NCBI RefSeq assembly: GCF_021018745.1
Contig: NZ_CP063845.1
Location: 1,612,001 to 1,676,000 of the forward strand
Direction: 5' to 3'
Origin: Gloeobacter morelensis MG652769
GTDB lineage: Bacteria > Cyanobacteriota > Cyanobacteriia > Gloeobacterales > Gloeobacteraceae
Length of the DNA: 64,000 nucleotides
Under the pieces are notes generated by a model. The model saw only the letters and a program-made list of their open reading frames with translations, ran no database searches and was not told the origin of the DNA. Shown here in pieces: positions 12,072 to 40,576 of this stretch (position 1 is its first letter; the number at the start of each line of letters is the position of its first letter). The position numbers and the translations under genes were made by a program.

Positions 12072-14804
12072 TCAGGGGCGCTTCGCCGTCGGCCACCAGT
12101 AACGCCGACGCTGCCAGGGGTAGGACGGCAGGCGGACGAGTCGGCCGCCGCAAGCGTAGGGCTGTTGCCAGGGTCTCCCTGCGTAGCCACGGGTGTAGAG
12201 GGCGCCCAGGGAAGTGAGCAGGGTGGCCTGCTCATCTTTGTTGCGCTCCAGGGAGGAAAGGACTGCGCCCTGGCGGCCCCGGTAATCGAGGCACTGGCGG
12301 GTGGCTCTTGCCAGGTCGGGGTGTGGGCTGATTTCGATGAACTGGTCGTAGCCCTGGCTTATAAGGGTGTCGATGGCGGCGGCGTAGTCGATCGGCTCGC
12401 GGACGGCGCAGCCCCAGTAATGCGCGTCGAAGTTGCCACTGGTCTGGTCTCTCAGGGTCGAGAACACCGCAGTCGTAGCGGGCCGTACGGTGATGCCCGA
12501 GAGCACCTGCACCAGTTCGGCCTGGAGGCTGTCCATTTGCGGGCTGTGGAGCGCGTAGTCGCAGGGTAGCCAGCGGCCGAGGGCACAGTAAGGCAGGTCC
12601 TGCAGCACGGCCTCGATGGCGGCGGTCTCGCCCGAGAGCACCGTGGCGGACGGGCTATCGATAGCCGCCACCGCGACCCGGTCTTCGTAGCCGGCGATCC
12701 ATTTTTCGGCTGTGGGCCGGTCCAATTCGGTGGCGAGCATGCGCCCGCGGCCCGGTTCGACCGTGCACTGGAGCAGCCGGGCCTGCTGGTAGACCACGTT
12801 TACGGCGTCCTCCAGATTCAAGATGCCGGCTACGTGCGCCGCTGCCGCCTCCGCCAGGCCGTAGCCGACTACCGCATCCGGTTGGATGCCCCAGCTCTTC
12901 CAGAGGGTCGCGAGCGCCACCTGCACCGCAAAGGCGCTCAACTGGGCGAACTCGAAGCGATAAAACGGCCACTCGGAAGGCTCAGCCGCGAACGCCTCCA
13001 ACACAGAGTGCCCCGCGCACGGCCGGATGTAGGCGTCACACTCGGCCAGGGCCGCGCGAAAAACCGGTTCGCGCTCGGCCAGTGCCCGGCCGATTCCCCA
13101 GTAGCGGACTTCCTGGCCCGCGAATACGAAGGCGAGCCGCGAGCGGCCCTCGCCGGACTGGGCGGCACGCACCGATTGTGGAAACGCTTCTGCCTGGTGG
13201 AAAGCCCGCAACTGATCGAGAAACTCCTGGCCCGATTGCCCGACGATGGCCAGGCGGTGGCGGTGGTGGGTTCGTCGCAAGTTTGCGCTGTAGCAGATGT
13301 CGTGCAGCGCGATGTCGCCCTGGCCGTCTAACTGTTCGATGTAGGCTGCGGCCAGGGCGCGCAGGGCCTGCCGGTCCTGGGCCGACAAGAGCAACAGGTG
13401 CACCTCACGGGAAGGAATGGCCAGGCGCGGCGGGGGCATGAATTCTTCGAGGATCACATGGGCATTGGTACCCCCAAACCCGAAGGCGCTTACTCCTGCA
13501 CAGCGGCGGGGCGAGCAGCTGGACCATTCCTGCAGATGGGTGGGGATGGCAAAGGGCGTGCCGGTCAGAGCGATATTCGGGTTGAGTTTGCGAAAGTGCA
13601 AATTGGCTGGGATGAGGCCGTGTTGCAGCGAAAGCACCACTTTAATCAGCCCCGCGATACCGGCTGCTCCTTCTAGATGGCCGATGTTGGTCTTGACGGA
13701 GCCTAGAAAGCAAGTTTCGCCCGCCGAGCGCGGCTGACCGTAGACCTCGGCCAGGGACTCGACCTCGATTGGGTCTCCCAGGGAGGTACCGGTGCCGTGG
13801 GCCTCGATGTAGCTCACCTCGCTCGCCTGGAGGCCAGCTGCTTCGAGGGCCTGGCGCAGCACGGCCTGCTGGGCGAGACCATTGGGGGCGGTCATGCCGT
13901 TCGAGCGACCGTCCTGGTTGAGGGCGGAGCCGCGGATGACGGCGCGGATGTCGTCTCCATCGGCGGTCGCCTCCGACAGGCGCTTGAGCACGATCGCCCC
14001 GCACCCCTCGCCGCGCCCGAAGCCGTCCGCTCGCGAGTCAAAAGTCTTGCACCGGCCGTCCGCTGAGAGCATGCGCGCCTTCGAGAAGGTGATGCTCATG
14101 CCGGGCGAGAGAATCAAGTTGACGCCTGCGGCCACGACCAGCCGACACTCGCCGGCGCGCAGACTCTGACAGGCCAGGTGCACGGCTACCAGCGAAGAGG
14201 AACAGGCCGTGTCGACGGCGATGCTTGGTCCTTGCAAATCGAGCAGGTAGGAGAGGCGGTTGGCGACGATGCTGGCAGCGGCACCGGCACCGGTGTGGGC
14301 GTCGATGCGCTCGGCGTCGGCATAGAGCATCCGTGCGTAGTCGTTGGCGCACAGCCCGACGAAGACGCCGGTCTTGCTGCCACGCAGGTGCTCCGCCGGT
14401 AGCCCGGCGTCCTCCAGCGCCTCCCAGGCCACCTCCAGGAGCAGCCGCTGCTGGGGGTCCATCGACTCCGCCTCGCGGTCGGAGATCCCGAAGAACTGAG
14501 CGTCGAACTGGTCTACCTGGGAGAGGAAGCCGCCCCAGCGGCTGGTGATCTTGCCGGGGGTGCCAGGCTCGGGGTTGTAGAGGGCCTGGGCATCCCAGCG
14601 GCCGGCCGGCACTTCGCCCACGGCGTCCACTTCGTCGCACAGCAACTGCCAGAAGGCTTCCGGGTGGTCGGCACCGCCGGGGAAACGGCAGCCCATACCG
14701 ATGATTGCGATCGGCTCCGGCCGCAGGTGCAGGAGCCTGGAGAGCATCGATCGCTTTTCGGCGGAAAGCCCGCCGATCAGTTTCAGGAGCGCATTGTCAC
14801 TCAT
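12072..14804 (-). CDS. PKS-C: type I polyketide synthase, KS plus inactive AT, no ACP
   Basis: 910 residues. The ketosynthase (about 30-450) is intact: DTACSSS, EAHGTGT and KTNIGH carry the catalytic Cys and two His. An acyltransferase-like domain (about 560-880) follows, but its nucleophile motif GHSxGE is replaced by GYGLAE (about residue 649) and the N-terminal GQGSQ motif is GQEVR, so the catalytic Ser is gone and the domain should not load an extender. The protein ends shortly after the post-AT linker ([13 protein letters not shown]) with no reductive domains and no ACP. It starts 9 bp after PKS-B stops. The KS must use an ACP on another protein, or the unit is a non-elongating docking or condensing module. 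Confidence 0.93.
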
Positions 14805-14813
14805 TTCGTTTCC

Positions 14814-17800
14814 CTATGACAGTTTTGTCGGTTCCAGGCAGGTTTCGAGCGGCGTTTCGGCCGAGAAGGCGGCAATGGCGGCCAGCAGATCGGCCAGCTC
14901 CAGGTCTTCACCGGTAGCACCGGGGGGCGGGGCGGTTTCCTCGAGGGGCAGGCCGAGCTTGACGCCCAAGTGGAGAACCAGGGCCGTGATAGTCGGGTAG
15001 CTCCAGAGGAGCGTCGCCGACAAAGTCAGCTCCAGGCTGGTTTCAAGCCGGTTGCGTAGCTCCAGGGCCATCAGTGAATCGACCCCCAAGCTGTTGAGGG
15101 GTGTCAGCGATTCGATGCGCGCCGGGACAAGGCCCAGGATCTGGGCTATCTCGGTGCGCAGGTGCGCTTCGAGTAAGATCCGGCGCTCTGCTGGTGCGGC
15201 CGTCTGCAACTGCTGGGGTAGAAGTGCCGCTTGCGGCTGGAGGCTCCCGCAATCGAGCAGGCGAGCCAGTAGTGGCGAGTGGGACATCCGTGGATAGTAC
15301 TGGCACCACTGCCGGACATTGAAGTCCATCACCCCGGCCTGGGCGGGTGCCTGGGCGAACAGGCGCCCAAATGCGGCCAGGCCCTGGTCGGGAGAAAAGC
15401 TACCGAGGCCGCGCAGGCCCAGCCGTTCGCCACGGTCGCTCCGGGCTGCCGCGAGGCCGACCGTGGCCCAGGGTCCCCAGTTGAGGCTCGTCGCGGGCAA
15501 GCCCTGGCCACGGCGGTGCCAGGCCAGGGCATCTAGAAAGGCGTTGGCCGCCGCGTAGTTGCCCTGCCCTGGAGAACCCAGCAGGGCCGCCGCCGACGAG
15601 AAGAGCACGAAGAAGTCGAGGGGCTGGTCCAGGGTGAGCGCGTGCAGGTTCCAGGCACCCGCCACCTTGGGAGCCAGCACGGCCTCCAGTTGCTCCCGGT
15701 CGAGTTGCAATAGCAGGCTGTCGTCGAGCAACCCGGCCGCGTGCACGATGCCGCGCAGCGGAGGGGCATCGTGCCGGGCGAGCAGAGCCTGCACTTGCGC
15801 GCTATCGGCGATGTCCACCCGTTCGGCTGTGACCCGGACGCCGGATCGCTGCCAGCGCGCAAGCGCCGCCTGGGCCGTGGCATCCGGGGGACGCCGCCCG
15901 AGGAGCACCAGGTGGCGGGCACCGCGTTCGATGAGCCAGCCTGCAACGCGCAGACCCAACCCGCCCAGGCCGCCCGCGATCCAGTAGGTACTGTCTGGGC
16001 GCACGGTGGGACCGGCTGCTGCAGCCGCTGCGAATGCGGGCGGCCGCTCAGGTATGGAGAGGACGAGCTTGCCTACGTGTTTGGCCTGGGCCATAAAGCG
16101 GAAGGCGTCGGCCGCCTCCGTGAGCGGGTACTCGCGCACCGGCGGCGGCTGGAGGGTACCTTCGGCAAAGAGCGCCATCACCTCTCGCAGGAGGGTGCCG
16201 ACCAACTGTGGGCGCTCTACGAACATGCAGGCCAGATCGACGGCGAAATACGACAGGTTCTTGCGGAAGGGTTTTAATCCGAGCGCCCGGTCTTCGTAGA
16301 TGTCGCGCTTGCCGATTTCGAGGAAGCGGCCGTAGGGTGCGAGTACATCGAGGCTGTGGGTGATAAATTCGCCCGCGAGCGAATTGAGCACCAGATCGAC
16401 GCCGTGCCCGCCGCTCCGGTGCATCACCTCCTGGGCAAACGACAGCGAGCGCGAATCCATGACGTGCCGGACACCTAGGGTCTGCAGCAGCGAGCGCTTC
16501 TCGGGGCTGCCGGCTGTGGCGTAGACCTCGGCACCGACGCGCTGGGCCAGTTGGACGGCTGCCAGGCCGACGCCGCCCGTCGCTGCGTGGATCAAGACCC
16601 GCTCTCCTGCTGCCAACCGGCCCAGGTGGTGAAGGCTGTAGTAAGCAGTCAGGTAGACTGCCGGGATGGCGGCGGCCTGGGCGAAGCTCAGCTGGGCGGG
16701 CATGGGGGCGACCAGGGCCGCGGCGGTGTAGACGAAGGATCCGAGGCTTGCGGGAGCAATTGCTACCACCGCATCCCCGACTTTTAAGCCCGTCACATCC
16801 TCGGCGCAGGCCGTGATCGTACCGGCGCACTCGGTGCCCAGGGTGAAGTCGCCCTCTGCCTGACCGGGGTAGATGCCCATCGCCTTCATCACGTCCATGA
16901 AGTTCAGGCCGCCGGCGCGCACTGCGATTTCCACTTCGCCGGGGCCGGGGGAGCGCCGGGTGCAGGGCCGCACGCCCAGGCTGTCGAGCGAACCGGGTGT
17001 GCCGACTTCGAGCCGGTAGGCCCGAGACGAGGCGGCGGGCTCAGGAGACCGGGGTCGGGGAGCGGCGGCGCCGACTGCACAGCCAGTGACGAGCCTGGCT
17101 ACGTAGCGCTGCTCACCGCGCAGGGCAATTGTGTTTTCTTTGTCTGCGTGCCAGATTTCTGCGCACAGGGAGTCGGTCGCCGCTACTGAGGGGTCCAGGT
17201 CAATGCGGGTCGGGTGCAGCTCGGGATGTTCGAGACAGAGAACACTGCCCAGCCCCCAGAGGGGTGCCTGGGCAAAGGCAATCGCAGGCGGGGTCGTGCC
17301 GACTGCCTGCGTGCCGCGGCTGACCAGCCAGAGACGGGGCGGTTCGGGCCAGTCGGCCCCGGCGATTGCCTGCACCAGGTGCACAACGCCGACGCAGCCG
17401 AGTTGCTGTGCCGCTGCCAGGCTGGTGATGGTCGTTTCGGCGCTCGGGGCTGCATCGAGGCTCCAGAGGTGAATGATGCCGCGTGGCGTGCGGACAGCCG
17501 TGCTGAGCAACTGCCGGAATGCCTCGGGTGAAGCGGGATCGATTCGGGGCTGGTCGGGTTCGCCCGCCGGGAGCGCAAAGACGAGCGTGCAACTTTCGCC
17601 TTTTGCTTCTAGAAATTGTGCGAGCTTTGCGCCGACGCCGCCCCGGTCGGCGAGGATGAGCCAGTCGCCCGCTGCGGCGGCCTGGGAAGGCAACCGGGGT
17701 TGCTCCTGCCAGTCAATTTCGTAGAGCCAGTCCTCGATGCTACCGGTCGTTGCTCCACCGGCTTCAAGGGCGCGCAGGCGCAGGGCGTCGATTTCGACGA

Positions 17801-20800
17801 GCGGCCGTCCCTGGGTGTCGAGCAGGCGCACGTCCGCCAGCCATTCGGCAGTCGCAGCGCCGGGGTGGTTGGGGCGCAGTCGGATATGTCCCCAGCACCC
17901 CGCCTGGGCAGGGCCGTAGCAGCGTACCCGCCCGAGACCGATGGGCACGCAGGGACCGCCCACGGGCAGGGCCGCCACCGCGAGCTGGAAACAGGCGTCC
18001 AGCAGGGCCGGGTGCAGGTGGTAAGCCGGTGTCACTAGACCTGTCTGCTGCAGCCGGGCGAACACTTCCGTCTCCCCCCGCCACAGTTGCTCCACCCTCT
18101 GGAAAGCAGGGCCGTAGTCGAGTCCACGCTCCTGCATCGCCCGGTAGTGTTCGAGCCCCGTCGTGCCCTGGATGCAGCGTTCCTGGATCCCAGGGATAGC
18201 CACTGCCTGGGTCGTTGGGTCCGACCGCAGCAATGTGCCGCGTGCGTGCAGCTTCCAGGGGGCCGCCTCGGCTGTGCCGGTTGCAAACGGACGGCTGGAG
18301 ATTTGAAAAGTGGCACTCCCGGAATCGGGGGTGACGAGCAGTTGTAAGGAGGCCGCCTTGCCTGTTTCATCCAGGAAGAGCGGTTCTAGAATTTCGATGT
18401 TTTCTGCGGCCGGGGTACATCCGAAGAGGTCTGCGGCCGCAGCGAGGGCCATTTCCACGTAGGCCGCCCCAGGTAGCACCACCCGTTGCAGCACGCGGTG
18501 GTCAGCCAGGTAAGGCAGCTTATCTATCCCCAGTTCGAATGACCAGAGGCGAGCGCCCGCCGGTGCGGCCAGTTCCAGGGGTTCGCCCAGGAGCGGATGC
18601 CCCACTTCGGGCGGCCGGAGCCGAGCGTCTGCGGTGTCGGGGGCCGTTTCCAGCCAGAAGGATTCGCGCTGCCAGGGGTAGTCCGGGAATGGGAGGCAGT
18701 GGCCGCCATCAGGATGCAGGGTGTCCCAGCGCACCGGCAGACCCAGCACATAGAGCGAGGCGAGTGAACCCAGCATCGCTGCCTGCTCATCCACTCCCCG
18801 CCGCAGCGAACTGATGAGCGTCACCGCAGTTCCCAGCCCTTCCGCCACCGCCGGCAACAGCACCGGGTGCGCGCTCAGTTCGAGAAACACCGTGTGTCCT
18901 TCTGAGCGCAACTGCTCAAGCACCGGCCAGAAGCGTACCGGTTCGCGCAGATTGGCGGACCAATAAGCGGCGTCGAGCAGACGTTCGGGCTCGGCGGTGC
19001 CTGTGACACTGGAGTAGAGCGGTACCGTTGGTGTCTGCGGCTGGATAGACGAAAGCTCTGCGAAAAGTTGTGCTGCTGGCCCATCCACGAGCGGGCAGTG
19101 AGAGGCAACACCCACTTTCACCCGCTGGCAGAATATCGAGCGCTCGCGCAGTTCTGAGAGTACTGCTTCTACTGCGTCCGGTTCGCCACTGAGCACACTC
19201 GAACGCGGACTGTTCGACGCCGCCAGCCACAGCCGGTCTTCCCTGCCAGCGAGCAGGCAGCGCGCTTCTTCCCAGTTCAGTTCCACTACCGCCATCGCTC
19301 CACCCGTCGCTGCCGCCAGCAGTTGGCTGCGCCGACAGATGAGCAGGGCCGCATCTTGGAGGCTGAGTGCCCCGGCGACGTGAGCGGCGGCCACCTCGCC
19401 CATGCTGTGGCCGACGACTGCCCCCGGCTCGACTCCCCAGGAGCGCCACAGGGCTGCGAGTGACACTGCCAGGGCGAAAAGGAGCGGTTGAGCAACCTCG
19501 ACGCATTCGAGGTGAGCAGGGTCGCCAGTTTTCAGTGCTTTGATGACCGACCAGCCGAGATGAGGCTGCATGGCCTGGTCGCAGCGTTCGAGGGCGGTGC
19601 GGAAGGCGGGGTGGTGCAGAAGACCGCGTCCCATGCCGGACCACTGGCTACCCTGGCCTGCGAAGACGAAGACGACTGGTGGTGGTCCTGAAGCCGGGCG
19701 GCGTCCTGAGTGCAGACCCGGGATCGCTTCGCCACGGGCAGAGTGTTCGAGCAGGGCGAGCAGTTCCCCGCGCGTCCGCACCACCGCTCCCAGGCGGTGT
19801 TCGTGTTCGCTTCGGCGCAGGCTTGCCGTGTAGCAAAGATCAGCCAGCGAAAGCTTGCGCTCGGCAATCAGACCGGCGCTCGTCCGGGCCAGCTCTTGAA
19901 GGGCCTGAGGTGTGTGGGCCGAGAGGGGGAAAAGCAAGGCGGGCGATTCTTCCGGTCGCTCCACTACCGGTGTGCCAAGTGCCAGTGGTGTCGGACCGCC
20001 ATCAGGATGCAGGGTGTCCCAGCGCACCGGCAGACCCAGCACATAGAGCGAGGCGAGTGAACCCAGCATCGCTGCCTGCTCATCCACTCCCCGCCGCAGC
20101 GAACTGATGAGCGTCACCGCAGTTCCCAGCCCTTCCGCCACCGCCGGCAACAGCACCGGGTGCGCGCTCAGTTCGAGAAACACCGTGTGTCCTTCTGAGC
20201 GCAACTGCTCAAGCACCGGCCAGAAGCGTACCGGTTCGCGCAGATTGGCGGACCAATAAGCGGCGTCGAGCAGACGTTCGGGCTCGGCGGTGCCTGTGAC
20301 ACTGGAGTAGAGCGGTACCGTTGGTGTCTGCGGCTGGATAGACGAAAGCTCTGCGAAAAGTTGTGCTGCTGGCCCATCCACGAGCGGGCAGTGAGAGGCA
20401 ACACCCACTTTCACCCGCTGGCAGAATATCGAGCGCTCGCGCAGTTCTGAGAGTACTGCTTCTACTGCGTCCGGTTCGCCACTGAGCACACTCGAACGCG
20501 GACTGTTCGACGCCGCCAGCCACAGCCGGTCTTCCCTGCCAGCGAGCAGGCAGCGCGCTTCTTCCCAGTTCAGTTCCACTACCGCCATCGCTCCACCCGT
20601 CGCTGCCGCCAGCAGTTGGCTGCGCCGACAGATGAGCAGGGCCGCATCTTGGAGGCTGAGTGCCCCGGCGACGTGAGCGGCGGCCACCTCGCCCATGCTG
20701 TGGCCGACGACTGCCCCCGGCTCGACTCCCCAGGAGCGCCACAGGGCTGCGAGTGACACTGCCAGGGCGAAAAGGAGCGGTTGAGCAACCTCGACGCATT

Positions 20801-22823
20801 CGAGGTGAGCAGGGTCGCCAGTTTTCAGTGCTTTGATGACCGACCAGCCGAGATGAGGCTGCATGGCCTGGTCGCAGCGTTCGAGGGCGGTGCGGAAGGC
20901 GGGGTGGTGCAGAAGACCGCGTCCCATGCCGGACCACTGGCTACCCTGGCCTGCGAAGACGAAGACGACTGGTGGTGGTCCTGAAGCCGGGCGGCGTCCT
21001 GAGTGCAGACCCGGGATCGCTTCGCCACGGGCAGAGTGTTCGAGCAGGGCGAGCAGTTCCCCGCGCGTCCGCACCACCGCTCCCAATCGATATCGGCCAC
21101 CGCTGCAGGCGCGTGACGCACTGCCGCACAGGGCATTTAGTGACTGGCTCGGCTCGGTGGCCAGGGCCTGGAAGCATTGAACCAGGGTGTTCAGGGCGTC
21201 CGGGCTATCGGCTGCGAGGGGCAATAGTTGGGCGCGGTCCTGGCGCAGTTCTTGCAGGACGACATGGCAGTTGGTGCCGCCAAAGCCGAAGGCGCTCACA
21301 CCGGCCAGGGCCGTTTCGTCCGCTGCGGGCCAGTCCGTGAGTGAGCGCTGCACCGCCAGACCCAGGGCATTGAAGCGGATATGCGGGTTGGGCTGCTCGA
21401 AGTGGAGGCTGGGCGGCAACAGCCGGTGCTTGATTGACAGGGCGACTTTGATCAGACCGGCGATGCCGGCGGCACTCTCCAGGTGGCCGATGTTGGTCTT
21501 GACCGAACCGATTAGCAATGGCCGGTCGGCCGGACGCTCTGTACCGAGTACGGCGCCCAGGGCACCCGCCTCGATCGGGTCGCCCAGGAGCGTGCCGGTG
21601 CCGTGGGCTTCGACGTAATGGACCGCCTCGGCCGGGACGCCGGCGCGGGCGTAGGCTTCTTGCAGCACGGCTTCTTGGGCCTGCGGATTCGGGGCGCTCA
21701 GTCCGTTGCTGAAGCCGTCGTTGTTGACCGCACTGCCGCGAATCAAGCAGTAGATCGGGTCGCCCGCAGCCAGGGCCGCCGACAGCGGCTTGAGTACGAC
21801 CGCCCCCACCCCTTCGCCGCGCACGTAGCCATTGGCACGGGCGTCGAAAGCCTTCGAGCGGCCGTCCGGGGCCATCGCTCCGAATTTCGACATCGCCACG
21901 GTGCTCGCCGGAGCGATCATCAAGTTGACGCCCCCGGCAATGGCCAGGGTCGATTCACCGTCGCGCAGACTCTGGCAGGCCAGGTGGATGGCGACGAGCG
22001 AGGACGAGCAGGCCGTGTTGACGACCAGGCTCGGCCCCTGCAGACCGAAAGTGTAGGAGACGCGGGCGGCAATAATGCTCGAATCCTGGCCGATGGCCGT
22101 GTGCTGGGCGATGTGCCGCGTGCCGCCACCGCCCAGGCGCGCGTAATCGTGCCACATTGCCCCCCAAAATACGCCGGTCTTGCTGCCGCGCAGTTGCTCC
22201 ACCGGCAGGCCGGCGTCTGCCAGGGCCGCCCAGCTCAGCTCCAGGCTCAAGCGCTGCTGCGGGTCCATCTGGATTGCCTCGCGCCCGGAGATCCCGAAGA
22301 ACTGCGGATCGAAGCGGTCCACCTGATCGAGGAATCCGCCCCAGCGCGTGCTCATCTTGCCTGGGGCGGCCGGGTCGTCACTGAAAAAGGCGCCGATCTC
22401 CCAACGCTCGGTGGGCACTTCGCGGATCGCGTCTTTGCCCTCGCAGAGCAACCGCCAGAAGGCGTCCGCGTTCGGGGCTCCCGGAAATCGGCAGGCCAGG
22501 CCGACGATGGCGATCGGCTCATGCTCGGGGCGCTCCACCGGGACGGGGCGCGGGGTGGACGGTGCCTGAGCGCCTGCCAGGTGCGCCGCCACCGCTGCGA
22601 CGGTCGGGTAGTCCCACACCAGTGTGGGAGAGAGCGGGCGGGCAAGGGCAGTGCTCAACTCCCCGGTCAGCTCCATTGCCCGCACAGAATCGAGCCCGTA
22701 GTGGTTGAAACGTTCGTGGCGGTTGAGGCCACCGGCGTCGAGGCCGAGCTTGACGGCCAGGCGACCGAGCAGCCAGGACTGGATCGCTTCGACGGTCGGG
22801 CTCTGGATGGCAGGTGTGTTCAT
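14814..22823 (-). CDS. PKS-B: fully reducing type I PKS, ACP-KS-AT-AT-DH-ER-KR-ACP
   Basis: 2,669 residues. Domains in order: N-terminal ACP (GLDSVRAMEL, about 45); KS (about 100-530; NTACSSS, EAHGTGT, KTNIGH); AT1 (about 605-930) and AT2 (about 1036-1360), both with GHSMGE and VASH; DH (about 1405-1680; His in YLADHRV, Asp in HPALLDAC); a structural region; ER (about 1950-2250; LNFMDVM and HAATGGVGLAAVQLA); KR (about 2275-2465; [10 protein letters not shown], the [19 protein letters not shown] Ser/Tyr/Asn site); C-terminal ACP (LGVDSLMALEL, about 2580). All catalytic residues look present, so the module should fully reduce its beta-carbon. The VASH motif resembles methylmalonyl-type ATs rather than the malonyl HAFH type. 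The N-terminal ACP suits a loading ACP for the methyltransferase encoded just upstream, with which it overlaps by ATGA. Confidence 0.95.
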   Translation of the reverse strand: MNTPAIQSPTVEAIQSWLLGRLAVKLGLDAGGLNRHERFNHYGLDSVRAMELTGELSTALARPLSPTLVWDYPTVAAVAAHLAGAQAPSTPRPVPVERPEHEPIAIVGLACRFPGAPNADAFWRLLCEGKDAIREVPTERWEIGAFFSDDPAAPGKMSTRWGGFLDQVDRFDPQFFGISGREAIQMDPQQRLSLELSWAALADAGLPVEQLRGSKTGVFWGAMWHDYARLGGGGTRHIAQHTAIGQDSSIIAARVSYTFGLQGPSLVVNTACSSSLVAIHLACQSLRDGESTLAIAGGVNLMIAPASTVAMSKFGAMAPDGRSKAFDARANGYVRGEGVGAVVLKPLSAALAAGDPIYCLIRGSAVNNDGFSNGLSAPNPQAQEAVLQEAYARAGVPAEAVHYVEAHGTGTLLGDPIEAGALGAVLGTERPADRPLLIGSVKTNIGHLESAAGIAGLIKVALSIKHRLLPPSLHFEQPNPHIRFNALGLAVQRSLTDWPAADETALAGVSAFGFGGTNCHVVLQELRQDRAQLLPLAADSPDALNTLVQCFQALATEPSQSLNALCGSASRACSGGRYRLGAVVRTRGELLALLEHSARGEAIPGLHSGRRPASGPPPVVFVFAGQGSQWSGMGRGLLHHPAFRTALERCDQAMQPHLGWSVIKALKTGDPAHLECVEVAQPLLFALAVSLAALWRSWGVEPGAVVGHSMGEVAAAHVAGALSLQDAALLICRRSQLLAAATGGAMAVVELNWEEARCLLAGREDRLWLAASNSPRSSVLSGEPDAVEAVLSELRERSIFCQRVKVGVASHCPLVDGPAAQLFAELSSIQPQTPTVPLYSSVTGTAEPERLLDAAYWSANLREPVRFWPVLEQLRSEGHTVFLELSAHPVLLPAVAEGLGTAVTLISSLRRGVDEQAAMLGSLASLYVLGLPVRWDTLHPDGGPTPLALGTPVVERPEESPALLFPLSAHTPQALQELARTSAGLIAERKLSLADLCYTASLRRSEHEHRLGAVVRTRGELLALLEHSARGEAIPGLHSGRRPASGPPPVVFVFAGQGSQWSGMGRGLLHHPAFRTALERCDQAMQPHLGWSVIKALKTGDPAHLECVEVAQPLLFALAVSLAALWRSWGVEPGAVVGHSMGEVAAAHVAGALSLQDAALLICRRSQLLAAATGGAMAVVELNWEEARCLLAGREDRLWLAASNSPRSSVLSGEPDAVEAVLSELRERSIFCQRVKVGVASHCPLVDGPAAQLFAELSSIQPQTPTVPLYSSVTGTAEPERLLDAAYWSANLREPVRFWPVLEQLRSEGHTVFLELSAHPVLLPAVAEGLGTAVTLISSLRRGVDEQAAMLGSLASLYVLGLPVRWDTLHPDGGHCLPFPDYPWQRESFWLETAPDTADARLRPPEVGHPLLGEPLELAAPAGARLWSFELGIDKLPYLADHRVLQRVVLPGAAYVEMALAAAADLFGCTPAAENIEILEPLFLDETGKAASLQLLVTPDSGSATFQISSRPFATGTAEAAPWKLHARGTLLRSDPTTQAVAIPGIQERCIQGTTGLEHYRAMQERGLDYGPAFQRVEQLWRGETEVFARLQQTGLVTPAYHLHPALLDACFQLAVAALPVGGPCVPIGLGRVRCYGPAQAGCWGHIRLRPNHPGAATAEWLADVRLLDTQGRPLVEIDALRLRALEAGGATTGSIEDWLYEIDWQEQPRLPSQAAAAGDWLILADRGGVGAKLAQFLEAKGESCTLVFALPAGEPDQPRIDPASPEAFRQLLSTAVRTPRGIIHLWSLDAAPSAETTITSLAAAQQLGCVGVVHLVQAIAGADWPEPPRLWLVSRGTQAVGTTPPAIAFAQAPLWGLGSVLCLEHPELHPTRIDLDPSVAATDSLCAEIWHADKENTIALRGEQRYVARLVTGCAVGAAAPRPRSPEPAASSRAYRLEVGTPGSLDSLGVRPCTRRSPGPGEVEIAVRAGGLNFMDVMKAMGIYPGQAEGDFTLGTECAGTITACAEDVTGLKVGDAVVAIAPASLGSFVYTAAALVAPMPAQLSFAQAAAIPAVYLTAYYSLHHLGRLAAGERVLIHAATGGVGLAAVQLAQRVGAEVYATAGSPEKRSLLQTLGVRHVMDSRSLSFAQEVMHRSGGHGVDLVLNSLAGEFITHSLDVLAPYGRFLEIGKRDIYEDRALGLKPFRKNLSYFAVDLACMFVERPQLVGTLLREVMALFAEGTLQPPPVREYPLTEAADAFRFMAQAKHVGKLVLSIPERPPAFAAAAAAGPTVRPDSTYWIAGGLGGLGLRVAGWLIERGARHLVLLGRRPPDATAQAALARWQRSGVRVTAERVDIADSAQVQALLARHDAPPLRGIVHAAGLLDDSLLLQLDREQLEAVLAPKVAGAWNLHALTLDQPLDFFVLFSSAAALLGSPGQGNYAAANAFLDALAWHRRGQGLPATSLNWGPWATVGLAAARSDRGERLGLRGLGSFSPDQGLAAFGRLFAQAPAQAGVMDFNVRQWCQYYPRMSHSPLLARLLDCGSLQPQAALLPQQLQTAAPAERRILLEAHLRTEIAQILGLVPARIESLTPLNSLGVDSLMALELRNRLETSLELTLSATLLWSYPTITALVLHLGVKLGLPLEETAPPPGATGEDLELADLLAAIAAFSAETPLETCLEPTKLS
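18703..19792 (-). repeat. AT duplication, copy encoding AT2
   Basis: This 1,090-bp segment of PKS-B recurs at 19996-21085 in direct orientation (offset 1,293 bp). The translations agree residue for residue in the coding frame and in shadow frames, so the DNA appears identical. Identity begins after 18702 (G here, A in the other copy) and ends after 19792. Confidence 0.9.
19996..21085 (-). repeat. AT duplication, copy encoding AT1
   Basis: Partner of 18703-19792. The 203-bp spacer between the copies (19793-19995) encodes a second, different KS-AT adaptor linker (FPLSAHTPQALQELA ... LADLCYTASLRRSEHEH), as if AT2 once followed its own KS. Confidence 0.9.
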
Positions 22824-24565
22824 AGCCGGGTGCCGGTTGTGGGTTTCGGGGTCAACAGGTTGATGCTGATGGCCGCCAGGGCCGCGGACGGGTACTGGAT
22901 CGCATAGAGCGGCTCGCTCTCGAGGCCCGCCGCACGGGCGGCGTCCAGGAATTCGCTCAGTTCGATCGGGTACTGGTCGGAGTAGCCGTGGGTGGCGTCG
23001 TAAGGTGTCGCCAGGGTGCGGCCGAGCTGGCGGGCGGCCTGCTCAGCATCGACAGTGTGCAAATCGAGCACAAGAAGGCCGAAGCGCCCCAGATGCGCAG
23101 CCCAGCGGCGGAAGTGCTCGGTCAGATTCAAGAAGAGTTCGTGGCCCTCGATCATCCGGCCCTGGTGGGCAAAGGCGCCGGTGGAGCGGCTTGGACGCCC
23201 TGGTGCCCCGGTCTGGGCGGGCGGCCGGTAGGGGCGGTTGTGGTCGAGAAACGACCGCACGCTCAGCACCTCGTTCAGGTGGATGCCGTGTTCTTGCTGG
23301 AGGCGACGGGCGAAGTCATCGGGGTCGTTGATGTCGCCGAAGATGGCGATGTGGGGAATGCCCGCGCCCGTCAGCCTCGTCCGGGCGGTGACGAGCGCCG
23401 CCTCGTTGTAGTCGGCACAGACGACGATGAGCGGGTCTTCCGAGAGCGTTCGACCGCGCGCTGTGCGGGTCTTGATCACCCGGTAGATGTGCTCGACGAG
23501 CGCGCCGTCGCCGCAGCCCATATCCGCGATGCCAAGCGGCCGGTCGGACCGCTCGAAGATATCGACGATGATGTCGTCTACTTTTTTAAAGTAGGTGTGG
23601 TGGGCTCGGCCGCTACCCCAGACGTTCATCTCGCGGTGGACGTGGGTCTCGTCGCCGCCGGCGGTCCGGACGATCAGGACAGTCGGGTCCCCGAAGATCA
23701 GTTCGGGGACGAGCAAAAAAGTCGGCAGGTAAGAAACGGTTACCCCGTAGGCGTAGGCCCGCGAGGCAGCGAAGCGCCCCGACGGGGTCAGCCGCACCTG
23801 CTCACCCGCCCGCACGGCCCAGCCCTGGTTTACCAGCAGCACGAAAGCCTCCTGCAGGTGATCGCCTGCCTGTGGGCAGCGCAGATCGGGGCTATCGAAG
23901 ACGCCGTGCATGGCAAGAGCCACCATCGTCGGTCCGACCAGCATCCCGTCTAGGTGGTGATGCACCTGTTCACGAATAAGCCGGTGCGCCCCATCTAGAT
24001 CCCAGCCGCGAGCGGACCGCTCGATCAGCCGCCGAAAGGCTGCGGACTCGGGGAGGTTGGAGAAGAGGTACTCGTCCATGCGGATGGCCAGCGGCACGAA
24101 AGCGCTCAATTCGCGGTAGACAGGTGCCAGCTTCAGAGCGCCGCGGCCCTTGGCGGTGAGGGTGTAGCCGATGCCGTTGGCTCCCACAGCACGGGTCAGC
24201 CAGCCCTGGCAGGCAAGCAGCCGCAGGGCGACGTTCAAATAGCCGACATTTCCCCCGAAGCGATCGACCAGCGAGTGCAAAGAAGCCGACTCGACCCGAG
24301 CGAACCAGGCCAGGATCCCTTTTTCTTCGAGCGCCATGATCGTCGTTGCAAGGGCAATGCCGTCGAGGTGCAAAAAGATCTTGCGGCGGATCTCGGCCTG
24401 CCCGTTTTTGTCGATAAACCGCTCCTCCACCCGCGCCGACGGCAGCAGGGGTCTGGAGGTTCCGGCTTTGGGGATTGCAATCGCACAACTGCGGCGCAAC
24501 GTCGATTGTTCTGCAGCGCTGCGGCTGCCGCTCATCAGTGGAATCGTTTCTGAATTGTCTGCCAT
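22820..24565 (-). CDS. class I SAM-dependent methyltransferase, candidate starter-unit enzyme
   Basis: 581 residues, larger than a typical small-molecule methyltransferase. The C-terminal half is a Rossmann methyltransferase: motif I is GIADMGCGDG (about residue 345), followed by VVCADYNE and LDLHTVDAE. The N-terminal half shows an internal repeat, HLDGIALATTIMAL (about 67) and HLDGMLVGPTMVAL (about 206), each within a winged-helix-like region (WLTRAVGANGIGYTLT; WAVRAGEQVRLTPSG). The stop overlaps the start of PKS-B (ATGA), whose first domain is a free-standing ACP. This size, a helical lid-like N-terminus and an adjacent loading ACP resemble the AprA-type methyltransferases of cyanobacterial PKS loading modules, which methylate malonyl-ACP to make branched starters. 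I infer that analogy from layout and motif feel, not alignment. An O- or C-methyltransferase acting later is the alternative. Confidence 0.7.
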   Translation of the reverse strand: MADNSETIPLMSGSRSAAEQSTLRRSCAIAIPKAGTSRPLLPSARVEERFIDKNGQAEIRRKIFLHLDGIALATTIMALEEKGILAWFARVESASLHSLVDRFGGNVGYLNVALRLLACQGWLTRAVGANGIGYTLTAKGRGALKLAPVYRELSAFVPLAIRMDEYLFSNLPESAAFRRLIERSARGWDLDGAHRLIREQVHHHLDGMLVGPTMVALAMHGVFDSPDLRCPQAGDHLQEAFVLLVNQGWAVRAGEQVRLTPSGRFAASRAYAYGVTVSYLPTFLLVPELIFGDPTVLIVRTAGGDETHVHREMNVWGSGRAHHTYFKKVDDIIVDIFERSDRPLGIADMGCGDGALVEHIYRVIKTRTARGRTLSEDPLIVVCADYNEAALVTARTRLTGAGIPHIAIFGDINDPDDFARRLQQEHGIHLNEVLSVRSFLDHNRPYRPPAQTGAPGRPSRSTGAFAHQGRMIEGHELFLNLTEHFRRWAAHLGRFGLLVLDLHTVDAEQAARQLGRTLATPYDATHGYSDQYPIELSEFLDAARAAGLESEPLYAIQYPSAALAAISINLLTPKPTTGTRL

Positions 24566-29750: not shown

Positions 29751-32700
29751 TTACTGGGCTGCCATCGCCTGCACCCGGTGCGATCGTGCCGCCTGTGCGT
29801 GCGCCGCTGCGAGGAAACCCTCCAGCCGTTCGGCCGTTACCTGAACGTCGGGATTTTTGACGATCGAGTAGTGGTCACCGGTGACGGCCTCGATGTGCAG
29901 GCCGCCAAGGGCGATTCCACTCCAGTCGGCAATCGGTGTGCGTTGCCTTTGAGCGGCCTGTTCGCTGGAGAGCAGCAGCGTAATCCGGCCTGAATAAGCG
30001 CGGGGCACATACTGTTGCAGCGCCCGGTAGTTGGTTTTGTACACCTGCATCAGCTTGTGGAGCTGTACAGACCGGGTCTTTTCGACTGCGGCGTTGGCGC
30101 TGCTCCAGTCGAGAATGGCCTGCAGTTGTCCGTCCAGTCCGGTCACCGCCGGGTCGGGCGGCAGTGCCACTTCGGTGCCAAGCAAGTCGGCGACGTTCTG
30201 GGCGAAGGCCGCGACCAGGTGGGCGTCGTCCGTCCCCCGGTTGCTGCGCTCGCCATCGGGAAGCGCACTGTCGAGCAAGGCGAGCAAATCGACCTGCTGG
30301 CCTTGCTGCTCCAGTTGTTGCGCCATCTCGTAAGCGACGACCCCGCCCAGGGACCAGCCGCCCAGCAGGTAGGGACCAGCCGGCTGCACCCGGCGCATTG
30401 TCTTGATATAGTGCGCGGCCATCTTTTCGATCGAGTCGAGGAGCGGTTGCCCATCGGCCAGGCCGGGGGACTGGAGGCCGTAGAAGGGTTGTTCTTTGTG
30501 CAGGTGGCGGGCCAGTTCGATGTAGCAGAGGACGCTGCCACCTACCGGGTGGATGCAGAAGAAGGGCCGCCGCACACCGGCAGGCTGAATCGCCACGATC
30601 GGGGAACCGGAAGGCCGGTTTGGTGTGTCGGTTTCGGCCGGACTGTGGGGGCGCTGACCGAACAGAAGCGGTAGAGGAAAGGCGCCCTTCAATTTCTCGA
30701 CGGCTCGCTGTACCTGCCGTTCGACCGCATCGCCCTCGAAGAATCTGGACAGGCGTTGCCCCAGGCGCGACAGCCGATTGCCCAGGGATTGCGCCTCAGC
30801 AACAGGGGTTTGCTCTTGCAGGACAAGCGCCAGGGCCTCGATCGTCGGCTTCTCGAAAAGTACAGGCAGGGTGACACTCTGACCGAATGCCTCGCGCACT
30901 TCTTCGAGTAGGCGCATGGCGAGCAGGGAGTGACCGCCCAGTTCAAAGAAGTCGTCTCGAACGCTAACGGGCTTCACTTCGAGCAACCGCTCCCAGATGC
31001 GGGTCAGTTGCACCTCGCGGGGGTTGCGAGGCGCCAGGAAGTCCTCTCCCGCTTCCGGGCGGGCGGCATCAGGAACGGGCAGGGCGCGGCGGTCGAGCTT
31101 GCCGTTTATATTCAGGGGCAATTCCGCCAGGAATACGTACAAAGAGGGCAGCATGTAGGGCGGCAAGCAGCCCTGCAACCAGGCACGCAACTCGCTCTCC
31201 AGAAGGGATTCTTTTGCCACCACGTAGGCGACAAGCCGCCTGTCGGTCCCCTGCCCGTCGGCACAGGCGATTACAGCACAGGAGCGCACTCCCGCGTGTC
31301 CCGACAACGCCGAGGCCACCTCCCCAGGCTCGACCCGGTGACCACGTATCTTCACCTGGTCGTCCGTGCGCCCTAAAAACTCGATACGACCGTCCACCCG
31401 GAATCGCGCCAGGTCGCCACTGCGGTACAACCGTGCCCCTGGCCGCTCGCTGTAAGGATGCGGCACAAACTTCTCAGCCGTCAAAGCCGCACGACCCAGA
31501 TAGCCCCGCGCTAGACCGGCACCACCCAGACAGAGCTCTCCCGCGACTCCGACCGGCACCGGCCGACCGTTGCTATCGAGAATGTACGCCTCGGTGCCTC
31601 CAATCGGCCGACCGATGGAAGGCAATGGGCCATCTGCTATCGGCGGGACGACCCCGGAAGTAGAGACGACCGTGTTCTCCGTTGGGCCGTAGTTATTGGA
31701 AAGTGCAAACGGTAGACCCGGCGGTGGTGACGAGTGCAGGGTGTCCCCGCCCACAAACAGCCAGCGCAGGGGAGCTTTTTCAGGCCAGGGCAGGGTGAGC
31801 ACCCGCTCGGCAAGCGGAGTGGGCAAGAAGCAGTGGGTGATCTGGCGATCGAGCAGCCAGTCGCGCAGGTCGGTTGGACAGAGGCGGGTGTGGGTATCGG
31901 GGAAGTGGAGGGAGGCACCGGCGCACAGGCAGGTCCAGACTTCCCATGCACAGGCGTCGAAGGCGGGTGCGGCGATTTGTGCAGCCCGGTCTCCGGGAGC
32001 GAAGGAGAAGGTTTTGAGGTGCCAGCGGATCAAGTTGGCGAGGTTGCGTCGTTCGACCTGGACACCTTTTGGGTTGCCTGTGGAGCCTGAGGTGTAGATG
32101 ACGTAGGCGAGGTCTGCCGGTGCAGACAAGCCGGGCAGATTGCTTTCTGCTCCCGGTATGTACAGCAGATCGTCCCCTTCGACCTTGGTTAGCCGGCCTG
32201 CTGTATTCAGGCAGAGCACACGAGCATTGGAGGTTGGCAGGATAGGAGCGAGGTGTTCTTGAGCGAGCAGCACCGGCACCTGAGCGTCGGTCAGCAAGTA
32301 GGTCAACCGCTCAGCCGGGTAGGCCGGGTCGAGCGGCACGTAGGCCCCGCCCGCCTTCAAGATTGCCAGCATGCCAATGACGGCCTCGGCTGAACGTTCG
32401 GCGAAAAGACCGACCAGCGACCCCGGTCCGACGCCGAGTGCCTGCAAGCGGTGGGCGAGGCGGTTGGCGCGGGTGTTCAGTTCGCCATAGCTCAAGCGCT
32501 GAGTGTCTGCCCACTCCAGGGCCGGTGCTTCGGGAGTCAGTTCGGCATGGCGCTCGAACAGTTCATGGACACAGGCCGTTTCCGCTGTGGGTACTGCCGG
32601 GTTCCACTCGACAAGCACCTGGCGGCGTTCCGACTCCGATAGCAGCGGCAATCGCGACAACCGTGTCTCTGGACGGGCGACGATGCCTGCCAGAAGCACA

Positions 32701-35700
32701 CCGAAGCGCTCCGCCAAACTCTCGACTGTCTCCACATCGAAAATGTCTGTGCTGTACTCGAAGCCACCGCACAATCCCGACGGACCTTCTTCAAGCGATA
32801 GCGTCAGGTCGAACTTCGCTGTGCGACCTTTTGCCGACAGCGACTCTATCGACAAACCAGGTAGCTCAAGCGCGGAAGCCGGGGCGTTTTGCAGAGCGAA
32901 GACTGCCTGCACCAGAGGCGAACGGCCCCATCGCTGCTGGGGTGCCAGATGCTCGACAAGCTTCTCGAAAGGTAGGTCCTGATGGGCATAAGCACCCAAC
33001 GCCGACTCGCGAGCACGGGCAATCAGTTGGCGGAAACTCGGGTCACCGCTGAGGTCGGCCCGCAAAGGCAGGGTGTTGACGAAAAAGCCAATCAGGGGTT
33101 CGAGTTCACCGCGATGACGATTGGCGACGGGGGTGCCGATGAGGAAATCGGTTTGTCCACCGCAGCGGTAGAGCAGGGTCTGCAAGGCAGCAAGCAACAC
33201 CATGAACGGTGTCGCCCCTTCGCGGCGAGCTAACAAAGCTATTGCTGTAGCTGTTTCGGGTCCCAACTCGATAGGCACCCATCCTCCGGCAGAGGAGGGA
33301 GCCTGGGGTCTTGGTCGGTCTAGAGGTAGTTCGAGCAGTGGTGGCACACCGGCTAGTTGGTTTTGCCAGTAGTGCAACTGCTCCTCAAAGGCGCCGTCCT
33401 GCAAAAAGCGGTGCTGCCACTCGGAGAAGTCTGCGTACTGCACGGAAAGAGGCGGCAAAGGTGAGGGCTGAGCGGACTGGAAGGCCGGGTAGAGAACGGC
33501 CAGTTCTCGGGTGAGCACTCCCACAGACCAGCCGTCCGCCGCGATGTGGTGCAGGGTCAAAAGCAAGGCATGCTCGTCCTCACCGAGTCGAATGACGACA
33601 GTGCGTAGCAGCGGTCCGTGTTCGAGGTCGAAGGGACGGCAGGCCTCGGCGGCGAGCAGTTGCTGGAGGTGCGCTTCACGTTGAGGTTCTGCCAGAGCGC
33701 AGAGGTCGACCACCCGCAGCGGAGCATCGTCGTTGGTGGGCGGGGCGATGCGTTGGACGGGTTGACCGCCTTGGAGGGTGAAGGTGGTGCGCAGGCTTTC
33801 GTGGCGACGCACGACTTCTGTAAAGCAGCGCCCGAGAGCATCGAGGTCGAGTGTGCCTTTGAGACGCAGGGCAAAGGGGACGTTGTAGGCAGGGTCGCCG
33901 GGTTCGAGCCGGTCTAAGAACCACAGCCGTTGCTGGGCAAAGGACTGGGCGAAGCGGGCGACACCGTCGGGTCGGGGAGCGACAGGGATGGGATCTACGC
34001 CTACCCCAATCGCAGCGGTTTCGGCTGCAACCGCGTTGCAAAGACCGGCAATAGTCGGCCGCTCGAAGAAGAGTTTGAGCGGTACTTCCAGACCGAGGGC
34101 GTCGCGCAGCCGAGAGACGGCCTGGGTGGCGCGCAGGGAGTGGCCGCCCAGTTCGAAGAAATTGTCGTGGATGCCGACCCGCTCGATACCCAGCACTTCC
34201 GACCAGACGCGGGCGACTGCACGTTCTGCGTCGGTGCGGGGAGCGACAAACCCTGCCTCGGTGTCGGGGCGCTTCGCTCCGGGAACGGGCAGGGCGCGGC
34301 GGTCGAGCTTGCCGTTTATATTCAGGGGCAATTCCGCCAGGAATACGTACAAAGAGGGCAGCATGTAGGGCGGTAGGCGGTCCTGCAACCAGCCGCGCAA
34401 CTCGGCCGTGCCCGTCTTATCGCCTTCCTGGACCACGTAGGCGACAAGCCGTTTATCTGCTTGCTCGTCATCGGCACAGGCGATTACAGCACAGGAGCGC
34501 ACTCCCGCGTGTCCCGACAACGCCGAGGCCACCTCCCCAGGCTCGACCCGGTGACCACGTATCTTCACCTGGTCGTCCGTGCGCCCTAAAAACTCGATAC
34601 GACCGTCCACCCGGAATCGCGCCAGGTCGCCACTGCGGTACAACCGTGCCCCTGGCCGCTCGCTGTAAGGATGCGGCACAAACTTCTCAGCCGTCAAAGC
34701 CGCACGACCCAGATAGCCCCGCGCTAGACCGGCACCACCCAGACAGAGCTCTCCCGCGACTCCGACCGGCACCGGCCGACCGTTGCTATCGAGAATGTAC
34801 GCCTCGGTGCCTCCAATCGGCCGACCGATGGAAGGCAATGGGCCATCTGCTATCGGCGGGACGACCCCGGAAGTAGAGACGACCGTGTTCTCCGTTGGGC
34901 CGTAGTTATTGGAAAGTGCAAACGGTAGACCCGGCGGTGGTGACGAGTGCAGGGTGTCCCCGCCCACAAACAGCCAGCGCAGGGGAGCTTTTTCAGGCCA
35001 GGGCAGGGTGAGCACCCGCTCGGCAAGCGGAGTGGGCAAGAAGCAGTGGGTGATCTGGCGATCGAGCAGCCAGTCGCGCAGGTCGGTTGGACAGAGGCGG
35101 GTGTGGGTATCGGGGAAGTGGAGGGAGGCACCGGCGCACAGGCAGGTCCAGACTTCCCATGCACAGGCGTCGAAGGCGGGTGCGGCGATTTGTGCAGCCC
35201 GGTCTCCGGGAGCGAAGGAGAAGGTTTTGAGGTGCCAGCGGATCAAGTTGGCGAGGTTGCGTCGTTCGACCTGGACACCTTTTGGGTTGCCTGTGGAGCC
35301 TGAGGTGTAGATGACGTAGGCGAGGTCTGCCGGTGCAGACAAGCCGGGCAGATTGCTTTCTGCTCCCGGTATGTACAGCAGATCGTCCCCTTCGACCTTG
35401 GTTAGCCGGCCTGCTGTATTCAGGCAGAGCACACGAGCATTGGAGGTTGGCAGGATAGGAGCGAGGTGTTCTTGAGCGAGCAGCACCGGCACCTGAGCGT
35501 CGGTCAGCAAGTAGGTCAACCGCTCAGCCGGGTAGGCCGGGTCGAGCGGCACGTAGGCCCCGCCCGCCTTCAAGATTGCCAGCATGCCAATGACGGCCTC
35601 GGCTGAACGTTCGGCGAAAAGACCGACCAGCGACCCCGGTCCGACGCCGAGTGCCTGCAAGCGGTGGGCGAGGCGGTTGGCGCGGGTGTTCAGTTCGCCA

Positions 35701-38700
35701 TAGCTCAAGCGCTGAGTGTCTGCCCACTCCAGGGCCGGTGCTTCGGGAGTCAGTTCGGCATGGCGCTCGAACAGTTCATGGACACAGGCCGTTTCCGCTG
35801 TGGGTACTGCCGGGTTCCACTCGACAAGCACCTGGCGGCGTTCCGACTCCGATAGCAGCGGCAATCGCGACAACCGTGTCTCTGGACGGGCGACGATGCC
35901 TGCCAGAAGCACACCGAAGCGCTCCGCCAAACTCTCGACTGTCTCCACATCGAAAATGTCTGTGCTGTACTCGAAGCCACCGCACAATCCCGACGGACCT
36001 TCTTCAAGCGATAGCGTCAGGTCGAACTTCGCTGTGCGACCTTTTGCCGACAGCGACTCTATCGACAAACCAGGTAGCTCAAGCGCGGAAGCCGGGGCGT
36101 TTTGCAGAGCGAAGACTGCCTGCACCAGAGGCGAACGGCCCCATCGCTGCTGGGGTGCCAGATGCTCGACAAGCTTCTCGAAAGGTAGGTCCTGATGGGC
36201 ATAAGCACCCAACGCCGACTCGCGAGCACGGGCAATCAGTTGGCGGAAACTCGGGTCACCGCTGAGGTCGGCCCGCAAAGGCAGGGTGTTGACGAAAAAG
36301 CCAATCAGGGGTTCGAGTTCACCGCGATGACGATTGGCGACGGGGGTGCCGATGAGGAAATCGGTTTGTCCACCGCAGCGGTAGAGCAGGGTCTGCAAGG
36401 CAGCAAGCAACACCATGAACGGTGTCGCCCCTTCGCGGCGAGCTAACAAAGCTATTGCTGTAGCTGTTTCGGGTCCCAACTCGATAGGCACCCATCCTCC
36501 GGCAGAGGAGGGAGCCTGGGGTCTTGGTCGGTCTAGAGGTAGTTCGAGCAGTGGTGGCACACCGGCTAGTTGGTTTTGCCAGTAGTGCAACTGCTCCTCA
36601 AAGGCGCCGTCCTGCAAAAAGCGGTGCTGCCACTCGGAGAAGTCTGCGTACTGCACGGAAAGAGGCGGCAAAGGTGAGGGCTGAGCGGACTGGAAGGCCG
36701 GGTAGAGAACGGCCAGTTCTCGGGTGAGCACTCCCACAGACCAGCCGTCCGCCGCGATGTGGTGCAGGGTCAAAAGCAAGGCATGCTCGTCCTCACCGAG
36801 TCGAATGACGACAGTGCGTAGCAGCGGTCCGTGTTCGAGGTCGAAGGGACGGCAGGCCTCGGCGGCGAGCAGTTGCTGGAGGTGCGCTTCACGTTGAGGT
36901 TCTGCCAGAGCGCAGAGGTCGACCACCCGCAGCGGAGCATCGTCGTTGGTGGGCGGGGCGATGCGTTGGACGGGTTGACCGCCTTGGAGGGTGAAGGTGG
37001 TGCGCAGGCTTTCGTGGCGACGCACGACTTCTGTAAAGCAGCGCCCGAGAGCATCGAGGTCGAGTGTGCCTTTGAGACGCAGGGCAAAGGGGACGTTGTA
37101 GGCAGGGTCGCCGGGTTCGAGCCGGTCTAAGAACCACAGCCGTTGCTGGGCAAAGGACTGGGCGAAGCGGGCGACACCGTCGGGTCGGGGAGCGACAGGG
37201 ATGGGATCTACGCCTACCCCAATCGCAGCGGTTTCGGCTGCAACCGCGTTGCAAAGACCGGCAATAGTCGGCCGCTCGAAGAAGAGTTTGAGCGGTACTT
37301 CCAGACCGAGGGCGTCGCGCAGCCGAGAGACGGCCTGGGTGGCGCGCAGGGAGTGGCCGCCCAGTTCGAAGAAATTGTCGTGGATGCCGACCCGCTCGGT
37401 ACCCAATACCTCTAGCCAGATCCCGGCCATCACCTGCTCGGCGGCGGTGCGCGGGGCAACAAAGTCAGTCCCGGCTTCCGGGCGGGCAGCATCGGGAGCA
37501 GGCAGGGCATGGCGGTCGAGTTTGCCGTTTATATTCAGCGGCAATTCCGCCAGGAACACGTAGGCCGAAGGCAACATGTACGATGGCAACCGGTTGTGCA
37601 ACCAGGCTCGCAACTCGCTCTCCAGGAAGGCTTCCCCTCGCGATACCACATAAGCGACAAGGTACTTTTCTCCTTGTTTGCCGTCGGTGCGAGCAATCAC
37701 AGCACAGGAGCGCACTCCCGCGTGTCCCGACAGCACCGACTCTACCTCCCCAGGCTCGACCCGGTGACCACGTATCTTCACCTGGTCGTCCGTCCGGCCC
37801 AAATACTCAATCACTCCGTCCACCCGGAATCGTGCCAGGTCACCACTGCGGTACAACCGTGCCCCTGGCCGCTCGCTGTAAGGGTGGGGCACAAACTTCT
37901 CAGCCGTCAGTCCCGCTCGATTCAGATAGCCCCGCGCCAGACCGATGCCGCCCAGGTACAGTTCCCCGGCTACACCGACCGGCACCGGCTGACCGTTGCT
38001 ATCGAGAATGTACGCCTCGGTGCCTCCAATCGGCCGACCAATCGGAGTACCCCTACCCAACTCCAGCGGGTGGCAACAACTGAACGTCGTGTTCTCAGTC
38101 GGGCCGTAGCCGTTGATCAGCTGGCATCGACCGGCACTCGACAGCAGACGCTCCGCATGAGCGAGCGATACCGCATCGCCACCGGCAAGCAAGTGTGACA
38201 GCGACCTCAGCACCGGCAGTTGTTCATCGACCATCACCCGAAACAGACCGGCACTCAGCCAGAGCGTATCGACCGCGTGGGTAGTAATCAGAGCGGCCAG
38301 TTCGCTACTGCCGAGGGGTCCAGCCGGGGCGATGGCGAGGCGGGCACCGTTGAGCAGCGGTCCCCAGATTTCGAAAGTGGCGGCATCGAAGCACAGGGGA
38401 GCGAACTGGAGGAAGACCTGTTCTGAGTGGAAGTGCAGGTAGCCGGGTTCGCGGACGAGTCGGTTGATGGCCTGGTGCGGGACGAGGACGCCTTTCGGGT
38501 TGCCGGTGGAGCCTGAGGTGTACATCACACAGGCAAGAGCGGCAGAACTTACTTCGGCGGATAGATTCTCGCCATCTTCAGGGCCTTGCACATCTGCGTC
38601 TGCAAAAAAGAGCACACGAGCATTGGAGGTTGGCAGGATAGGAGCGAGGTGTTCTTGAGCGAGCAGCACCGGCACCTGAGCGTCGGTCAGCAAGTAGGTC

Positions 38701-40481: not shown

Positions 40482-40576
40482 CGCAGCTGCCCAGTTATGT
40501 AGAATTTGCGTTTGTCGTGGTCTTTTGTACCCGTCGAAACTTTGCCTCGACGGATGCAATCGGCAGAAACCTGCCG

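Follow-up and report, generated by a model that had tools for sequence, protein, structure and literature searches.

PKS-B, a protein of the cyanobacterium Gloeobacter morelensis, carries two tandem acyltransferases (AT1 and AT2) that are 100% identical in DNA. Its architecture is of a known, if uncommon, kind, the ACP-KS-AT-AT starter module; its carrier is new, and so is the identity of the two ATs. The best explanation as a whole is probably that of a split starter module in which AT1 was converted and in which the starter is methylated on the N-terminal, loading ACP (ACP_L). The architecture and the conversion, taken jointly, can be proposed with high confidence. Coordinates refer to the window, i.e. 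the whole 64,000-nucleotide stretch of DNA that was analysed, and every feature described in it lies on the minus strand.

Domain organization of PKS-B and extent of the repeat

PKS-B is encoded by a single open frame of 2,669 aa (14814-22823), in which Pfam orders the domains, along the minus strand, as ACP-KS-AT-AT-DH-ER-KR-ACP. The protein has two PP-binding stretches, the first of which, ACP_L (22569-22796; near residues 10-85, motif GLDSV), stands ahead of the KS of module 1 and aligns with the N-terminal ACP of homologues. The ketosynthase (KS, 21246-22526) carries the motifs TACSSS, HGTGT and NIGH and is of the condensing type, with an active Cys, and not a KSQ. It is followed by two Acyl_transf_1 domains in tandem, both containing GHSMGE and VASH, and by the processing domains of module 1: a dehydratase (17754-18599; PKS_DH_N, PS-DH), an enoylreductase (16059-16946; ADH_N, ADH_zinc_N), a ketoreductase (15465-15992; KR) and the C-terminal ACP (14967-15161; PP-binding, 2555-2619 aa).

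The AT region consists of five consecutive parts. L1 (21086-21245) is the part outside the repeat of a degenerate KS-AT adaptor. Repeat copy 1 (19996-21085) encodes the second half of an adaptor, AT1 (aa 620-927), the putative loading AT, and a truncated post-AT linker that stops at LHPDGG. L2 (19793-19995) is a 203-bp spacer encoding a canonical KS-AT adaptor, which holds an equal position in homologues. Repeat copy 2 (18703-19792) encodes the second half of this adaptor, AT2, the putative extender AT, and the start of its post-AT linker. The linker continues as HCLPFPDYPWQRESFWLE (18648-18701), identified by a motif check, after AT2 only.

The two 1,090-bp copies form an exact direct repeat and, together with the spacer, stay within the PKS-B frame. 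In an in-register comparison their similarity ends abruptly on both sides, the tract starting inside the KS-AT adaptor, between ...RL and GAVV, and ending in the post-AT linker at ...LHPDGG. In the rest of the genome, the best resemblance to the repeat is 73-77% over 106-151 bp. The identical bases include about 363 third codon positions, and their identity cannot be due to chance. As far as the sequence can tell, the repeat is real, and it encodes two complete, identical ATs, in agreement with the preliminary description, which had reported an AT-AT arrangement with 1,090 bp repeated. The same description had read the spacer as a second and different KS-AT adaptor. This is borne out by PF22621, which matches L2 at 53 bits but L1 at 22 bits, against a cut-off of 27 bits, and by the 21 residues out of 54 that L1 and L2 share. 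A search of the window against Rfam gave no matches, and an AlphaFold2 model of adaptor-AT1-adaptor-AT2 (mean pLDDT 44, pTM 0.34) is useless for geometry.

The next PKS protein (12072-14804) is a KS-AT without an ACP, in which the AT nucleophile motif GHSxGE is replaced by GYGLAE at aa 647. Lacking this motif, its AT would need malonyl transfer from elsewhere, or is decaying; the tandem ATs of PKS-B are possibly the malonyl donor.

Precedent and homologues of the ACP-KS-AT-AT layout

The N-terminal ACP, which does not figure in the preliminary description, alters how the module is read. The ACP-KS-AT-AT order is a known 'split' starter layout in the myxobacterial soraphen, myxothiazol, myxalamid, chondramide and miuraenamide (MiuA) systems (PMC10051162). 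In MiuA, the KS of the first elongation module separates the loading AT, which is the first AT, from the starter ACP (PMC10051162). These modules resemble PKS-B in their N-terminal order, a likeness of layout alone. They differ from it in that their first AT is assigned to the starter (acetyl-CoA in MiuA) and their second to the extender, whereas the ATs of PKS-B are identical, and in that the hosts of the soraphen-type modules are myxobacteria and not cyanobacteria. Further modules of this layout are listed in PMC10646177. Kid13 of the kidamycin pathway also has two ATs in one starter PKS but, unlike PKS-B, lacks an N-terminal ACP, and its two ATs differ and were proposed to serve two different starters (PMC10646177).

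When the AT1-spacer-AT2 junction was searched for in 386 genomes of the phylum, the matches listed included no other full one. When a profile of three junctions was run against 218 Nostocaceae genomes, a single genome, G560, appeared among the matches listed. Its homologue (L085:9068-13837; 1,589 aa) has the order ACP-KS-AT-AT-ACP and is co-linear with PKS-B from the ACP to the post-AT linker, with 49% identity over a 1,410-column alignment and 71.5% identity between the KSs. Its two ATs, with the motifs IAVH and CAFH, are 45.9% identical to each other. PF22621 matches a single stretch of this protein, the adaptor between the ATs (69 bits), with no match reported before AT1, and AT2 is closed by SYPWQEQRYWVE, the equivalent of the YPWQR linker. 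The protein differs from PKS-B in lacking DH, ER and KR, and no MT1-like gene was seen within the 20 kb read; it is a clean cyanobacterial example of the ACP-KS-AT-AT layout.

Outside the phylum, the Streptomyces plasmids NZ_CP107856 and NZ_CP102510 (L066/L077) encode ACP-KS-AT-AT-DH-ACP proteins which, unlike PKS-B, lack ER and KR. The one compared in full is co-linear with PKS-B and 41% identical to it. The AT pairs of the two proteins are 41.1% and 40.3% identical to each other, and a canonical adaptor is present only between the ATs, the stretch before AT1 being down to 23 residues.

The KS tree, which also samples the remaining ketosynthases of the window and KSs from elsewhere in this genome and from related genomes, unites the window KS with the Nostocaceae and Streptomyces KSs in one clade (100/98), within which the window and Nostocaceae KSs group at 99/98. 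All members of the larger clade come from ACP-KS-AT-AT starter modules, the Nostocaceae and Streptomyces members being assigned to this type by layout. The tandem-AT layout is thus common to these co-linear homologues and of older origin, rather than something that befell the PKS-B gene recently.

AT2 as the AT of the module itself

In a normal module, a KS-AT adaptor lies ahead of the AT and a post-AT linker with the YPWQR motif lies behind it. Both in PKS-B and in the Streptomyces protein, this linker is found behind AT2 only. Together with the canonical adaptor between the two ATs, this marks AT2 as docked in the module and AT1 as an insert; on the sequence, AT2 is thus read as the module's own, extender AT and AT1 as an inserted loading AT. 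The position of the adaptor in the ACP-KS-AT-AT layout therefore reveals the docked member of the AT pair.

The preliminary description had instead taken AT2 for what is left of a further module after the loss of its KS. Under such a history, two adjacent modules would have been fused by deletion of the second KS, leaving L2-AT2 as a remnant, and AT1 would later have been converted by AT2 or the reverse. L2 is indeed a full KS-AT adaptor that starts exactly where a KS would end, and its best score is obtained with a methyltransferase-associated KS-AT module of Nostoc (142) rather than with a tandem-AT homologue (116). These two scores also leave room for an exchange of the L2-AT2 cassette itself. 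Against a lost KS stands the distribution of the incomplete parts, since it is AT1 that has the degenerate adaptor and lacks the YPWQR linker, and not AT2. In addition, Pfam finds no remnant of a second KS between the ATs, and the arrangement, including the inter-AT adaptor, is shared with homologues in two phyla whose KSs are sister to the window KS in the 100/98 clade. On these comparisons, a fusion of this kind is clearly unlikely and the claim is not supported. The matches listed for the 386 cyanobacterial and 218 Nostocaceae genomes included no homologue that keeps an intact KS between its ATs. The simpler reading is that of an old, inserted loading AT1 placed before the module's own adaptor and AT2; a KS loss in the distant past of the whole family may have occurred but is not needed to explain the layout.

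Probable homogenization of the two ATs and its likelier donor

PKS-B lacks the unlike loading and extender ATs that are usual for this layout, although they do not define it. The AT pairs of its homologues are 40-46% identical, compared to 100% in PKS-B, and present identity in what was of old a pair of differing ATs implies that one was recently copied over the other. On these sequence comparisons, the two ATs were most likely made identical by gene conversion or recombination, which upholds the part of the preliminary description that had proposed a homogenization by conversion. The NRPS modules of the same cluster (29751-42484) contain exact inter-module repeats of 2,928, 1,723 and 1,555 bp, which points to strong homogenization between modules and shows that it is general here.

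As to the direction of the copying, AT2 is the favoured, inferred donor. The repeated stretch contains a canonical adaptor half and the LHPDGG end, as expected beside AT2, and in the homologues this stretch is shortened or absent before AT1; both tract ends carry sequence of the AT2 side. Furthermore, of the sites that distinguish the loading AT (AT_L) of Streptomyces from its AT2, the window agrees with AT2 at 74 and with AT_L at 38, which also favours AT2. The windowed comparison with the Nostocaceae pair gave 44 for AT2 to 38 for AT_L, i.e. a tie. In the AT tree, the clade that holds the window AT contains loading as well as extender ATs and not AT2s exclusively, so the tree does not settle its specificity.

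A tandem duplication of a 1,293-bp unit (spacer and AT) in an ancestor that had one AT, with the front ACP-KS-L1 part replaced afterwards, would account for the 100% identity without conversion, and it is consistent with the fact that the spacer begins just where copy 1 has its 3′ end. It would also agree with the GC3 of the AT and spacer block (0.65-0.69), which is below that of the KS (0.83), a gap compatible with several histories. However, two events would be required, and the layout found in the KS sisters would have been rebuilt by coincidence, which makes such a duplication very unlikely. That an error of assembly or polishing created the second AT, or that short-read polishing made diverged copies identical, is extremely unlikely, since polishing may erase a few differences but would not make ATs of about 45% identity identical, even if the repeat is exact and the same cluster holds several other exact long repeats. 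Moreover, the spacer, a unique stretch that keeps the frame, is homologous to the adaptor lying between the ATs in other starter modules, which shows the AT-AT layout to be real, and the exact NRPS repeats in this single 4.92-Mb chromosome, the longest of 2,928 bp, indicate that the assembler separated repeats longer than 1,090 bp.

An AprA-MT1-like methyltransferase and the putative starter unit

Directly upstream of PKS-B, and overlapping its start by 4 bp with the start codons as listed, lies a frame for an AprA-MT1-like C-methyltransferase (22820-24565). Pfam matches (AprA_N, WH_AprA, Methyltransf_36) place it in the AprA-type MT1 family over the N-terminal, winged-helix and methyltransferase domains, and its PDB match is 6b39, 'AprA Methyltransferase 1' (E 1e-70), from the loading module of apratoxin. 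It resembles AprA MT1 in belonging to the same family and in being sited at the start of an assembly line; unlike AprA MT1, it is a stand-alone enzyme without GNAT, MT2 or ACP domains. AprA MT1 reportedly adds methyl groups to malonyl-ACP in one or two rounds, decarboxylation then yielding a propionyl, isobutyryl or pivaloyl starter, and the ACP is said to receive its charge from a malonyl transferase. If the ATs of PKS-B use malonyl-CoA, two identical malonyl ATs make sense, AT1 supplying ACP_L with the unit to be methylated and AT2 the module ACP with the unit for extension.

In Nostoc calcicola, Desmonostoc muscorum and a Trichormus MAG (L040, L041, L045), an MT1-like gene precedes a single-AT KS-AT-KR-ACP protein that has no ACP_L. 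This context and the missing GNAT domain, a decarboxylase domain that its characterised relatives possess, suggest that the methyltransferase may act on the extender and not on the starter. The MT1-like/KS-AT-KR-ACP cluster of these three genomes is conserved and unstudied. Downstream of the KS-AT-KR-ACP gene, L040 and L041 contain a thioesterase-like gene, and all three loci contain three genes whose translations resemble, by eye, the E1 alpha, E1 beta and E2 components of 2-oxoacid dehydrogenases. Stand-alone MT1-like genes, 38-40% identical, are also found in Flavobacteriales genomes (L048, L049), with no long frame of PKS size within the 21 kb read.

The gene content of the genome bears on the unit loaded by the two ATs. 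No match to methylmalonyl-CoA mutase was found in the genome, and Carboxyl_trans has only two matches in it, with frame sizes that fit AccD and AccA. Hence methyl branches are probably SAM-derived and the ATs probably use malonyl-CoA. In other systems, VASH goes with methylmalonyl or ethylmalonyl, and malonyl is thus not certain for the ATs of PKS-B. A methylmalonyl extender was considered for VASH and set back, there being neither a mutase nor a propionyl-CoA carboxylase candidate in the genome. On balance, the ATs of PKS-B probably load a malonyl-type unit.

PKS-B would work as a split starter module, ACP_L-KS-AT1-AT2-DH-ER-KR-ACP, in which AT2, to which L2 and the post-AT linker belong, would be the docked extender AT, and AT1 a displaced loading AT inserted between the KS and the adaptor and meant to charge ACP_L. 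AT1 would have been overwritten, most likely from AT2, over a tract that opens midway through the KS-AT adaptor and closes where the post-AT linker starts, which would leave both ATs with one specificity. AT1 would then load ACP_L and AT2 the ACP of the module, both with the identical malonyl-type unit. The AprA-MT1-like enzyme would methylate malonyl-ACP_L, and decarboxylation would give an (iso)acyl starter for transfer to the KS. The KS would extend this starter once with the unit loaded by AT2, and the product would be fully reduced. This starter model, with methylation of malonyl on ACP_L by the MT1-like enzyme, is put forward tentatively, at somewhat less than even chances.

Implications

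The ACP-KS-AT-AT layout, reported from myxobacteria, is now extended to cyanobacteria, where it occurs in two families. Beside the cluster, a 1,589-aa protein (1458-6227) with RHS repeats, TIG domains and a C-terminal pretoxin HINT domain has a polymorphic-toxin-like architecture.

Swapping of ATs is one of the main approaches to PKS engineering, in which it is hard to decide where to place the boundaries. The probable homogenization of AT1 and AT2 would be a natural version of the domain swap attempted by enzyme engineers, and PKS-B is one of few seemingly recent in-module AT exchanges whose ends can be read to the base, in the middle of the KS-AT adaptor and in the first residues of the post-AT linker. 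Because boundary choice is the weak point of such swaps, these natural boundaries are of direct use. It is conceivable, though rather doubtful, that this natural AT swap moved the module from a dedicated starter acyl-CoA to a starter built from the extender unit, with both ATs delivering malonyl and the free-standing MT1-like enzyme methylating it on ACP_L. If this is true, the conversion tract would end at boundaries that evolution itself has set for an AT exchange that works.
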